Notes under the pieces: model-generated
The model's input: only the letters and a program-made list of their open reading frames with translations
What the model was told of the DNA's origin: nothing
Database searches by the model: none
NCBI GenBank assembly: GCA_963682175.1
Contig: OY821779.1
Coordinates: 3,918,501-3,982,500, forward strand
Origin: Triglochin maritima
Taxonomy: Eukaryota; Streptophyta; Magnoliopsida; Alismatales; Juncaginaceae
Direction of reading: 5' to 3'
Length of the DNA: 64,000 bases
Shown: positions 56,620-61,568 of the stretch, piece after piece
Position numbering within the stretch: position 1 is the stretch's first letter
Layout: every line of letters starts with the position of its first letter
Made by a program: the position numbers and the translations under genes

Positions 56620-56628
56620 AAAAAGAAC
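56620..56628. repeat. Candidate 9-bp target-site duplication, left
   Basis: AAAAAGAAC, repeated at 61560-61568. The 9-bp length is the MULE standard. The low complexity of the motif leaves some doubt. Confidence 0.6.
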
Positions 56629-56629
56629 T

Positions 56630-56691
56630 GAACTGCTAAACATCGCCCCAAAATTACTTAAATCGCCCCTTGAAATTACCAAATTGCCCTT
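56630..56691 (+). repeat. Left TIR of the MULE
   Basis: 62 bp, GAACTGCTAAACATCGCCCC...AAATTGCCCTT. Reversed, 61496-61557 matches at 59 of 62 positions. Confidence 0.93.
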
Positions 56692-56705
56692 CCTCCTATT
56701 TTTGC

Positions 56706-56713
56706 TTATATAT
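56706..56713 (+). promoter_or_regulatory. TATA-like box of the left MULE gene
   Basis: TTATATAT about 60 bp before ATG 56775, just inside the TIR. Confidence 0.5.
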
Positions 56714-56774
56714 CTCACAATTTCACTCTTTTTTCAAAACTTTCTCTTCCTATACCTACTACACAAGATTACGA

Positions 56775-56846
56775 ATGTCTCGGAGGCCAGGGAAGCAGCC
56801 AGCAGTTCCCCCGGTGTACCCGTATGAGGTAACATTACGTTATTTA

Positions 56847-56877
<31 letters not shown>

Positions 56878-57938
56878 GTCGTCGGCGTCCGAGGGAGACG
56901 CCCCCCGCATGGGGCGGGCGTCCGAGGAAGCCGCTCCCCCTATGGGGGGAGCGGCTTCCGAGGACGCCCGACCCATGCGGGGGGCGTCTCCCTCGGACGC
57001 CGACCCGAAGCGGGAGACGTCTGCGGAAGACGTCTCCCCGATGGGGGAGACGTCTTCCGCAGACGTCTCCCCGTAGGAGGAGGCGTCTCCGACAGACGCC
57101 TCCACCTTGCGGGAGGCGTCTCTCGCAGACGCCTCCGCCTTTTTTGTTTTTTTAATTAATAAATATCATAATTACTTTAATAAATAGTGATAAATCAAAA
57201 AAATTAATTTAACAAATTCTTTTTAAGTTTAACATTTGTGATATTTAGTTTTAACAAATTTTGATTTAGTTTAACAATTGTTTTAATTTAGTTTAACAAA
57301 TTTTGATTTAGTTTAACAATTTTGATAATTAAGTTTAACAAATTTTGATTTAGTTTAACAATTTTGATAAATATGATAATTTAGTTTAACAAATTTAACA
57401 AATTTGTATTTAAAATTTCAATAAATAGTCATCGGGTCACAGTGGAGGGAGAGGCAAGTCGATACCATTACACGCCTTCCGTTCTTTAGAGGATGATTCA
57501 GCACCGCGTCATCCACGTAGACGGGGGATATCTGCTTCGGTCAGGAGGGAGAGGGAGGCATTACGTCGTCGTGAGGAGGAGGATGATTCCTTCGATGATG
57601 AGCATGTAGATAGTTTCGACGACGAGAGCGACGATGATGGCCCGTATGATGTGCGGCCGGAGGTGGAGAGGCAGGGGGATTATAGCGGAGGACGTGGTCG
57701 AGCGGGTACTTCTACTTCCGCCGGATGGATGGTGCGGAAGGGTAGGGGTGGGAGGTTTACGGCCGGGGATTCGAGCTCGTGCACTGTTGATCCCCGCACT
57801 CGGGCTGTAGACCCAATCTTGCAGATGAGGGATGAGCTGCCAGACGATGCCAGAGCTGCATGCGGAGATGTGGATCAGATCATACAGTCATGGCATACTC
57901 AGTTAGGCATCTCCGACCATGATTCGGATGATGAGTAG
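56775..57938 (+). CDS. MULE companion protein, charged, unknown function
   Basis: My model has two exons, 56775-56828 and 57429-57938, with a phase-0 GT-AG intron (GAG|GTAACA and ATAG|TCATC); 187 aa. Exon 1 encodes MSRRPGKQPAVPPVYPYE. Exon 2 begins SSGHSGGRGKSIPLHAF, then has a basic part (APRHPRRRGISASVRRERE), an acidic part (EEEDDSFDDEHVDSFDDESD), a Gly/Arg part (SGGRGRAGTS, VRKGRGGRF) and a conserved-looking end (RTRAVDPILQMRDELPDDAR, then DQIIQSWHTQLGI) that closes with DSDDE. I recognise no domain. It faces the transposase gene and starts at the opposite TIR, the place mudrB holds in MuDR, but I see no likeness to MURB. It could be a DNA- or protein-binding helper. The splice model is inferred. 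Confidence 0.6.
56884..57139. repeat. Left array: eight 33-bp GC-rich units
   Basis: Units start every 33 bp from 56884 to 57115; the eighth is cut at about 25 bp. The consensus is GGCGTCT-N6-AGACGCC, then a 13-bp part centred on CCCCATGGGG. Both parts are dyads; some units vary as GACGTCT. The array lies wholly in intron 1 of the companion gene, after a run of A. Its 33-bp period equals 11 codons and one plus frame is open throughout, reading GV..RRLP.GG-like repeats, but that frame does not join exon 1. Confidence 0.92.
57190..57415. repeat. AT-rich repeats in the companion-gene intron
   Basis: Repeated ACAAATTTTGATTTAGTTTA and TTTAGTTTAACAA words with about 22-27-bp spacing between the GC-rich array and exon 2. 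Confidence 0.75.
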
Positions 57939-57949
57939 GCTGATCTGTT

Positions 57950-58130
57950 GTACCGTACTCTTAGTATTTGTATTTATATTTGTTTATCTGTTGTACGCTT
58001 AGTATTTGTGTTTGCTTATCTGTGGTACGCTTAGTATTTGCATTTATATTTGTTTATCTGTTGTACGCTTATTATTTATTATTTGTGTTTGTGTTTGCGA
58101 ACATGTCGTACGCTTATTGTTTGTATTTGT
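57950..58130. repeat. Repeats downstream of the companion gene
   Basis: Several copies of a CTGTTGTACGCTTAGTATTT-like unit with TTTGTTTATC, spaced about 36-50 bp, in the zone between the two convergent genes where both transcripts should end. Confidence 0.7.
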
Positions 58131-58259
58131 GTTTGATAACCTTTCGTACTATTATATATAATGCAAATAAAGCAAACATATCAAAACATATTACATAATA
58201 AAGCAACACTATATAATGTACAAACATATCAAAACATATTACATAATTATACAAACATA

Positions 58260-61200
58260 TCAAAACATATTACATAATTGTTGCCAATATGCTATCCTAT
58301 GTTGGTACTCCAGCTCCCATCCAATAACACTCTCATCTCGTATTTGATACCACAGAGTCGCTATAGGAGGTACGGGGAATCCCTCATTCAATTCCAAACG
58401 AATGTAATGAGCGTAACTCCCTAAATGAGCAATAATCAACTCTCTGCACGGTCTCGTCACGGTAGGCGGACTCTCCCAAGGTAGAACTGTAAGACATGGG
58501 TACAACGAACCATCATTTCCGAGAGAGAAGAACATAACTGCACACTTGTAAAAATTTGCAATGGGAAACAAGTCCGTCCACGTCTCCATATAGTGATTCT
58601 CGCCACAAGGTCCCCCGCCCCAATTAATCCGGTGACGAGCCTCCGCCACACCGTCGTAGTATACGTGCTCATAAAAAGATGGGTTCGCAGCTATCTCATT
58701 TGAAATCGAACGACGGGCGAGTTGCCAATTGTCTTCACCACCGTGGAAAACATCGGCGACACATCGAAATCCACAGTTTCCATCAGCACGTACATCATTC
58801 CACTGGTGTAGGAATGGCATAATGATTCCTGGAATTCTATCTCCATATGGGAAGTCGTCTACGTCAGCCCGCCCAGTCACTACAATATGAACAAAAAATA
58901 CAGTTAGATATAATAACAAAAGATACATATTTACTGAAATAAATAACAAAATAATAATAATAATAATAAATATAAGGATGGTATACCTGATCCTCCTCTC
59001 ACTGACGAAGAACCAGAAGATCGACCACGACCTTTGCTTCCACTACCGGAAGAACGACCACGACCTCTACTCCCACTACCTGAAGATCGACCACTACCTC
59101 GCTCTGCATACTCAAACGCACTAGGGTCCCGTCGTGTCGACTTTCCCCTTGGTCGACCTCGTAGCTTTGTTTTTACTGCAGGCTCTTTCAAATTCGAATG
59201 TTCGGGGTGTAGCTGCTCGAATAAAACCTGAGAGGCAGATCGAATTACGGTAGGGTCACTTCCTGCAATCTCATCAACCAGACTGCGAAAATGTTCGGCG
59301 TCTTGAGCTGCCTGAGACACAAACTCTGCGTTCCCGGCTCCTTCCCCAATGACAAGTGTCCTCCAGAACGAATGAATCTGCTCTAAGTAAATTCCGTTTT
59401 CTGATTCAAGACATCCACGGATGGTACATGCGCAAGGTATCCCATGAGAAGTCAGAAAAGCGCACTCGCAACGATATTCAACTTCATCATCTAACTGTTG
59501 CATTCTCTTCACCTCCTGACTCAGCAACTGCAAACAGTGATGCGAAACTCTACCATTTATGTGACGATATAGAGAATGTCCGAAATTAGTCAAATTTCGC
59601 CGTCTCGAGTCTTCAAGAAAGTTTCGAATATTCGTCAGCTGCATTTCAGTAGCCGCGTTGACGCGCTCGAAAAGAGTGTCCAGAGCTGCAGTCGATGTAG
59701 AAATCCACTCTTTTAGAGCCGAATGAGCACTTTCGACCCTACAATTCGTGGTGTTCCCAAAATGAAGGACTTTGTTCGTCCAATTCAGCACAAACTTTTC
59801 TTTATGCACTAACCACGTGGTGTCCAGATACTCCGTGATAGCCGGCCACGATCTATACAAATCTTTCAGAGCATACACAGCTCTATCATACTCGGCTTCT
59901 GAAGTAGAAAGCATGATCTTCCTCCATCTTCCACGCCTCAAAGTCTCTGCCATCTCCTTATTCTTGCCGAATACGTGGTACGCGTAATTCAATACGTCTT
60001 TGTTGATGTGCCATGTGCAGAGTAAATGAGCAGAGTCTGGAAAAACCTCTCTCACTGGTCGCATAAGGCCTAACTCCCGGTCTGTTATTATTGCAGTCGG
60101 GCTGACAGTCCCCAATAACAGATCTCTCAACTTCTCCATCACCCACAAATAACTGGAGTAAGATTCATCCATCAAAATCGCATATCCAATAAGGAAATTC
60201 ATGTTTGCTGGTGTGACCCCAATCATTTCGAACAAAGGCATCTTATACTTGTTCGTCTTGTAAGTCGAATCCATGCAGATAACGAAAGGATATGTCCGCA
60301 ACAACTGGACTGACGTCGGATGTGCCAAAAAAGCGTGAGTGACGACATCAGTTTCTGGATCCGCCATAATCCAATGTAAGTACTCACACTGCACTGCTTG
60401 GTAGAGAAACTGCTGGACGGGATTCCGATATTCAGATTTTGTCCTCCTCATGTAATCTCTGAAATTATAAATATGCCTTTGATTTGGATTGTCCTCCGGG
60501 AATTTTTCTTTTACTGCCTTCAAGATGTTCCGTGGTTTTGCTTGCGCCTCTGTCATATCACGAACAATCTTCTTCGCCCCAGAACTTAGACCACTAATTT
60601 GACGATGACCCTCTGGATAAACTGCCAGTCTGTGGTTGTGATGTCCGTGAGCACTATTAAAAACCAAAACCCATCCATCACGATCTCGTCGCTCCACCAC
60701 TTTTATTAAGAAACGGCAACCGCAACCCTTTCTTTTGGTGTTTCTTCGAAGTGCAGTATCCATATCCCGAGACTCCATTTGATTTCGCCGGTCGCATCTC
60801 AAATAACAATCCATCCGACTATCTGATCTTGTTTTGTACGATGACACGACCAAAAAAAACCCAGCTCCGATAGCTACTTGTTTGGCCCATTTACATGCTT
60901 CATCGATTGTTGCAAAGATTTGTGTAGTTTGAAATAACTCACTGTAATCCACTCCATCACCACCGAAATCTGGAACCTACAAAAATAAAATCAAAATTAA
61001 AAAAAAAATAAATAAATTCGAAATTAAAAAATTTCAAAAATAATGTCGAAATTAAAAAAACAAAATCAAAATCAAAAAAAAAAAAAAAAAAAGGCGTCTG
61101 TGTTACACGCCTGCCCCATGGATGGGGCGTCTGTGTTAAACGCCTTCCCCAACGGTAAGGCGTCTGCGTAGGACGCCTGACCGAAGGGAAGGGCGTCTAC

Positions 61201-61403
61201 TACAGACGCCTTACCCATGGGGAGGACGTCTACATAAGACGCCTATCCCATGGGGGAGGCGTCTGCGTTAGACGCCTAGTCCATGGGGAGGGCGTCCTAC
61301 GCAGACGCCCTCACCATGGGGGAGGCGTCTAATGCAGACGCTCGACCCAAAATTTGCCCCGCGCCAGGCTTACCTCACCCGATGCATCACCCTCGTCAGA
61401 CAT
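58260..61403 (-). CDS. MULE transposase (FAR1-type) fused to an OTU cysteine protease
   Basis: Three exons on the minus strand, 61403-61374, 60976-58987 and 58879-58260; GT-AG, phases agree; 879 aa. Exon 1 gives only MSDEGDASGE. Residues about 30-125 form a FAR1-like zinc-binding region (CYLRC, GCGCRF, HGHHNHR). The DDE core follows: D246 in ICMDSTYKTN, D309 in IITDRELG, E425 in CRVESAHSALKEW. A SWIM-like finger (CECAFLTSHGIPCACT, about 513-527) ends in Cys where His is usual. An AT-hook-like GRPRGK and Gly/Ser/Arg repeats lie at about 615-670. Splicing at 58987/58879 then adds the OTU domain: DGNCGFRC with D706 and C709, and the His in SYAHYIRLEL near 831. The transposase would cut at the TIRs. 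The OTU part predicts deubiquitinase-type activity, which is unproven for this family. The exon 3 join is inferred from frame and splice sites. Confidence 0.88.
61093..61350. repeat. Right array: eight 33-bp GC-rich units
   Basis: Units start every 33 bp from 61093 to 61324, the eighth cut at about 26 bp. The pattern is GGCGTCT-N6-AGACGCC, then a part centred on CCCATGGG, as in the left array. It lies wholly within intron 1 of the transposase gene, with a run of A on its left. Stops occur in the frames I checked, so it is not coding now. Confidence 0.92.
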
Positions 61404-61452
61404 TTTCGTGGTGTTTTTACTGATAAATTATGAATATACATGACCATATGCC

Positions 61453-61462
61453 TTATTTATAG
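61453..61462 (-). promoter_or_regulatory. TATA box of the transposase gene
   Basis: CTATAAATAA on the minus strand, about 50 bp before ATG 61403 and just inside the right TIR. Confidence 0.6.
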
Positions 61463-61495
61463 ACACGGGACGATATGGGTATTAAATATATTGTT

Positions 61496-61557
61496 AAGGG
61501 CAATTTGGTAATTTCAAGGGGCGATTTAAGTAGTTTTGGGGCGACGTTTAGTAGTTC
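61496..61557 (-). repeat. Right TIR of the MULE
   Basis: Inverted copy of 56630-56691 with three differences. Confidence 0.93.
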
Positions 61558-61559
61558 CC

Positions 61560-61568
61560 AAAAAGAAC
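61560..61568. repeat. Candidate 9-bp target-site duplication, right
   Basis: AAAAAGAAC, the same as 56620-56628. Confidence 0.6.

Follow-up and report, generated by a model that had tools for sequence, protein, structure and literature searches.

The DNA analysed here, referred to below as the window, is a stretch of 64,000 nt from Triglochin maritima (Juncaginaceae), assembly GCA_963682175.1, contig OY821779.1, positions 3,918,501-3,982,500 of the forward strand. Within it lies a Mutator-like element (MULE) which carries two genes, arranged tail-to-tail (convergent), one encoding a transposase and the other a companion protein. The predicted first intron of each gene contains an array of eight 33-bp units built on the inverted arms GGCGTCT and AGACGCC. 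The reading of these arrays that we favour, and hold with about even confidence, is that they are subterminal docking sites for an element-encoded protein and are needed in cis. The features of the element, in window positions, are as follows; the exon and intron borders of both genes are predicted from splice signals.

56628..61559: the window copy of the Mutator-like element, 4.9 kb, with inverted ends and an 8-bp target duplication AAAAAGAA at 56620-56627 and 61560-61567
56630..56691, + strand: left terminal inverted repeat, 62 bp, 59/62 identical to the right repeat
56775..56828, + strand: companion gene exon 1 (MSRRPGKQPAVPPVYPYE), 18 residues, followed by a GT donor
56881..57004: long palindrome over left units 1-4, with 60-nt arms, 95% complementary, and a 4-nt loop at 56941-56944
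56884..57136, + strand: left array of eight units of 33 bp, within the companion gene's predicted first intron
57429..57938, + strand: companion gene exon 2, acidic
58260..58879, - strand: transposase gene predicted exon 3 (last), with the motif ADGNCGFRC, which we take to be OTU-protease-like
58987..60976, - strand: transposase gene exon 2, with the MULE transposase domain (PF10551)
61093..61342, - strand: right array of eight units of 33 bp, within the transposase gene's predicted first intron
61374..61403, - strand: transposase gene exon 1 (MSDEGDASGE, 10 residues), followed by a GT donor
61496..61557, - strand: right terminal inverted repeat, 62 bp

The element is Mutator-like: a MULE transposase domain, inverted ends and a target duplication are all present. 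MULE target duplications are about 8-11 bp, and the same element boundaries were found by eye to be consistent with 8-bp duplications in L006/L051 and L118. A Pfam scan of the transposase gave PF10551 with E=2.5e-24 (86 bits against a cut-off of 27.6) and the FAR1 domain PF03101 with E=0.012, at 16.8 bits under its cut-off of 28.1, and no match for the predicted exon 3.

A search of the window for GGCGTCT-N5-AGACGCC with up to 3 mismatches gave 16 matches, all of them inside the two arrays and eight in each at exact 33-bp steps (56884-57133 and 61093-61342). The shuffled window gave a mean of 0.46 matches and a maximum of 3 (100 shuffles). The two arrays of eight 33-bp units described in an earlier, sequence-only reading of this DNA are thus borne out, and their placing in first introns at both ends agrees with the splice signals, though the spacer between the arms is of five bases and not six as had been given. 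The second dyad which that reading had noted in each unit is present but is not a separate feature. Its centre lies 16.5 bp from the first as symmetry requires, because a tandem repeat of a near-symmetric unit gains a second centre half a period away. The arms had been said to covary or to stay fixed; they are mostly fixed, and covariation within units of the window is confined to L5 and L6, where GACGTC stands in both arms. Taken alone, L2 and L3 make poor dyads (4/7 pairs), and L2 pairs with L3 instead. Over the 19-bp dyads L1/L4, L5/L6 and R3/R7 are exact reverse complements, so units are present in both orientations. The centre of the dyad is seldom symmetric, with its two inner position pairs complementary in 4/60 cases as against 187/210 for the arms. 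Exact inverted matches between interiors were not significant against permutation of the interiors within an array (P 0.06 left, 0.07 right). The arms also resemble, by eye, GGGGCGAT of the inverted ends.

Copies of the element were sought in a genome of 1.063 Gb. The transposase exon gave 40 near-identical copies scored among 2594 first-look candidates and the transposase protein at least 65 copies at 99-100% (65 scored of 14706 candidates). An exact 35-base inner piece of the inverted ends has 2,314 genome sites and its reversed control none. Full copies are longer than the window copy. The right array was of full length in 29/30 loci, L019 having lost 33 bp, and the left array was read whole in L051 and L101 (the remaining 18 fetched rows are uncounted). 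Copies of this type are called A below. A small subgroup of them, L093-L096, shares two changes that form a pair, G>T and C>A, one in left unit 5 and the other in left unit 6, at window positions 57023 and 57060.

A shortened relative, family B, was found beside one copy (L004), and its copies span ~1.2-1.35 kb. Its transposase end comprises the inverted repeat, promoter, exon 1, intron 1 with the array and the start of exon 2, and its other end a companion-like exon 1 with an intron array. Exon 1 of this family has 410 exact genome sites. Both arrays were kept in 16/16 copies, these being 16 of 40 listed copies picked by non-array sequence. The companion-side array has 7 units in 16/16, and the transposase-side array has 7 units in 11 copies, 6 in two, 5 in one and 4 in two. 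Given that family B has lost nearly all coding sequence yet keeps both arrays, its arrays are not there for protein-making. The equal copy number at the two ends, which had been taken as a sign of function, does not serve as one: close copies share their 8/8 count by descent, so that it is no evidence of function, and in family B the 7 units of the companion side stand against 4 to 7 on the transposase side. At one place the companion-side arrays of family B (L004, L052-L090) carry either of two interiors, TACAC or GGCTA, by the look of them the outcome of losing a 33-bp unit in different ways, and some rows (such as L052 and L080) contain extra sequence.

Arrays were also counted in 40 stretches of contig C1 anchored on the terminal inverted repeat (TIR), consisting of 31 of the 32 single ends listed and nine stretches from five unusually spaced pairs. 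At least 4 units were present in 34/40 and at least 1 in 40/40 (two chance dyads in L144 excluded), and control windows were never above 2 units (82 windows). The A-type transposase-side arrays in these stretches have 8 units in 15/15. Among the A-type companion-side arrays (n=10), four are of 8 units and four of 2, and the other two, L138 and L160, are rearranged, carrying other, unplaced changes in the left array. A further kind of array, type C, has the same arms in mirror-arranged units at 33-34 bp steps and adjoins the inverted repeat (L141); it sits in an element of different make-up, outside the first introns. The type C edge, which includes the first array bases, has 44 exact genome sites, and 2 to 6 units were present in 12/12 copies read. 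The small derivatives include L128, an element of 431 bp with two units in all whose junction is unique in the genome. A 430-bp element in L168, made up of inverted ends, a four-unit array and the companion exon-1 stretch, is perhaps a still smaller non-autonomous type.

Units of the diverged arrays were matched one by one, in reading order, and compared. The arms are 82-92% alike, the interiors 40-71% and the second dyads 48-61%. With counts rebuilt from rounded fractions, the transposase-side arrays of A and B were alike in 90/98 for the arms and 43/84 for the second dyad (Fisher 4e-10), and the companion-side arrays in 80/98 and 51/84 (Fisher 0.003), comparisons which involve no type C units. 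The two ends of B gave 89/98 against 40/84 (Fisher 1e-10) and the two ends of A 94/112 against 55/98 (Fisher 1.5e-5). Among 16 A copies, which are related so that the changes are not independent events, changed cells numbered 36/1791 in the arms, 108/1562 in the second dyads, 29/640 in the interiors and 71/1781 in the rest of the intron; for CpG cells the arms had 8/512 changed against 22/128 in the second dyad. This pattern of constraint fits a recognised sequence with two half-sites rather than pairing alone. A common order of unit orientation across the arrays (++--+--) was considered and is no more than a lead, with P=0.33 when just the window element's own two ends are compared. For all four arrays the observed sum was reached by 0/20000 random flips and 5/20000 order permutations, in a test whose six comparisons share arrays.

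Both arrays fold stably as single-stranded DNA, the left at -152.3 kcal/mol against -63.4 in dinucleotide shuffles and the right at -95.0 against -40.9. Pairing was tested in 40 family B companion-side arrays, chosen by array likeness, on a 90-pair fold from their own consensus. The paired cells amounted to 95.0% against 94.9% in shuffles (28 of 500), the double-change cells to 7 against 2.8 +- 1.5 (8 of 500) and the covariation to 0.043 against 0.038 (0 of 500). When the fold was slid along the arrays, 42-52% of cells were paired, and two of the six slid versions had 9 and 7 double-change cells. The double changes exceed the shuffles, but two slid controls match or surpass them and the paired share is about that of the shuffles. 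Selection on pairing alone is unsupported by these shuffled and slid controls, and the support that the aligned arrays give to any selection on pairing is weak. What stands of the selection proposed in the sequence-only reading, on pairing or on symmetric binding, is the symmetric site, with arms that outconserve the rest of the units and arrays that are retained in shrunken relatives.

Breakage of the arrays was also observed. In five derivatives (L007, L128, L131, L144 and L167) deletion ends lie no more than 6.5 bp from the centre of the left long palindrome. The chance of five such ends is ~5e-7 if they are uniform over the array, two of the five having been picked for unusual spacing. Because these deletion ends fall at the hairpin loop, they suggest that the left-array hairpin forms in plant cells, during repair or replication.

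In full copies the companion gene extends into a plant mobile domain (PF10536, E=8.4e-47 in a piece of L036). The window copy has lost this part, which is present in full copies from ~57801 (compared with L006/L051 and L036), and alignment to the window runs through 57801 in 1/30 loci, namely the window's own L001. The window companion frame ends with a C-terminus found in other copies (AVDPILQ...). A search with the companion protein gave one match at E up to 0.1, itself continuing into a plant mobile domain. DUF1985, the VANC-type domain, had no match in the window companion or in the plant-mobile-domain pieces scanned. The transposase has relatives in Spinacia, Chenopodium, Bienertia, Mercurialis, Euphorbia and others at 26-57% identity (96 proteins). 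Public records label several of these (P0006, P0009, P0013 and others) 'PKS-NRPS hybrid synthetase cheA-like', which is misleading for a MULE transposase. AT-rich tandem repeats occupy 57202-57370, in the remaining companion intron, and 57955-58279, between the 3' ends of the two genes.

The proposal that the arrays are docking sites draws on their position at both ends, the constraint on the arms, their retention in shrunken copies and the recurrence of the arms in another type of element that has the same inverted ends. A dimeric, element-encoded protein, either the transposase or the plant-mobile-domain companion of the full-length copies, would bind the conserved arms GGCGTCT/AGACGCC with their five-base spacing. 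Once the arrays of both ends are occupied, the ends would be competent to transpose, and binding may act by bringing the ends together or by keeping them unmethylated and accessible. We lean slightly towards the effect on accessibility because of the VANDAL parallel described below. The palindromic folding would be a by-product of the growth of the arrays by fold-back copying, which would also render them fragile.

Several observations weigh against this proposal. The 5' flank is nearly as unchanging as the arms among the 16 A copies (66/2448 cells changed against 36/1791), and in the stretch from inverted repeat to ATG at the transposase end 74/89 aligned bases are conserved between A and B. 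Family B possibly arose from one deletion event, in which case its 16 copies are perhaps one observation of retention, and deletion derivatives of cut-and-paste elements often retain their ends anyway. Since the arms also pair, their conservation could in part be due to hairpin-templated correction. The unit number goes down to 1-3 in 6/40 TIR-anchored stretches. All type C copies except L141 were found by a pattern including the first array bases and so have arrays partly by choice. The unique 431-bp junction has n=1, in L146 a single unit of the companion side is joined to five of the transposase side in place of two full arrays, and the 430-bp element of L168 (reverse strand ~80-511) has one four-unit array.

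The arrays might instead be a neutral palindromic minisatellite, growing and shrinking by fold-back copying and template switching and riding along near the inverted ends needed for transposition, which is the chief alternative and one that we consider possible but rather doubtful. It would account for units in both orientations, some of them exactly inverted, for unit numbers that differ among copies and for the five deletions that stop at the hairpin loop, and the double changes that preserve pairing are also expected from hairpin-templated correction. However, homogenisation copies whole units, yet it is the arms that are conserved while the interiors and second dyad are not, and type C has the same arms with another interior and in another place in its element. 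If, on the other hand, the hairpin itself had a function, transcribed introns or single-stranded DNA would fold and then feed small RNAs, block silencing or guide processing of the element. The stable folds of both arrays, the 90-pair fold of the family B companion-side array with its 95% of cells paired against 42-52% when slid, the excess of double changes and covariation over shuffles, and the deletion ends at the loop, which fit a DNA hairpin in vivo, can all be read in this way. We nevertheless judge a hairpin function quite unlikely: the paired share hardly differs from that in shuffles, two slid versions have as many double changes or more, the arms preserve sequence and not just pairing, and the right array folds worse than the left.

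Control of splicing or expression by a structured, GC-rich first-intron sequence in the two element genes would suit the location of the arrays, both in predicted first introns ~215-260 bp from the ends and directly after short first exons. Family B retains both arrays without nearly all of the coding exons and the type C array lies outside those introns, and such a role is very improbable. A more specific version of the docking proposal is that the element's own plant-mobile-domain protein targets the arrays on the DNA, in an anti-silencing, end-marking module that evolved separately from VANC. In each of the two genes the first-intron array of GGCGTCT-N5-AGACGCC units would then be bound by a dimeric plant-mobile-domain protein. 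This version we regard as unlikely; if true, it would provide a first DNA target for a transposon-borne member of the domain family that includes MAIN and MAIL1.

The element is an abundant plant transposon of recent amplification, its candidate binding site is sharply defined and arrayed at both ends, and its natural variants range from 1 to 8 units per end. The role of subterminal arrays in MULEs, DNA binding by plant-mobile-domain proteins and the growth and breakage of palindromic arrays thereby become testable.

In CACTA elements (En/Spm with TNPA; soybean Tgmt*) subterminal repeats capable of forming palindromes are cis-determinants for an element-encoded DNA-binding protein (PMC2613891). 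These repeated motifs near both ends provide the closest working parallel. Here, in contrast, the superfamily is another one: the transposase is of the MULE type, the ends CTGAACTGC and GGGAACTAC lack CACTA, and the 33-bp periodic double-arm units lie in predicted first introns ~215-510 bp from the ends. A CACTA transposase (tnp2) was not among the Pfam matches, the domains being MULE-type. VANDALs are themselves MULEs. In VANDAL21 of Arabidopsis, with VANC21, the VANC motifs are repeated in tandem outside coding sequence, among other places within introns of two element genes (PMC5735166), the arrays turn over fast and VANC causes loss of methylation (PMC5735166, PMC10398659). With its extra element gene and intron arrays VANDAL21 is the closest parallel with introns. 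The motif there is YAGTATTAC/T, however, and the word 'palindrom' is absent from PMC5735166; the companion in the present element bears a plant mobile domain, and DUF1985 was not found in the pieces scanned.

Foldback-type MULEs (Tm1, FARE and MuTAnT) have tandem or palindromic foldable repeats in their ends (PMC3169594, PMC4486113). The repeats in those elements build the inverted ends, whereas here the ends are of 62 bp and the arrays lie further in, within predicted introns. The plant mobile domain PF10536 of the full-length companion is shared with MAIN and MAIL1, host genes which act in transposon silencing and gene expression and are linked to a promoter motif (PMC7156037, PMC9899485). 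That motif, DOWN, as given for the MORC1 promoter (CATGCAGTTT), has by eye no likeness to the arms. A MULE with such arrays in its first introns was not found in the literature searched, which was mostly open-access and in part seen as excerpts. Given that motif, companion protein and transposase differ, membership in the CACTA or VANDAL systems is not claimed. The arrays would rather appear to be comparable to those of CACTA/TNPA and VANDAL/VANC, but with a different sequence and anatomy.

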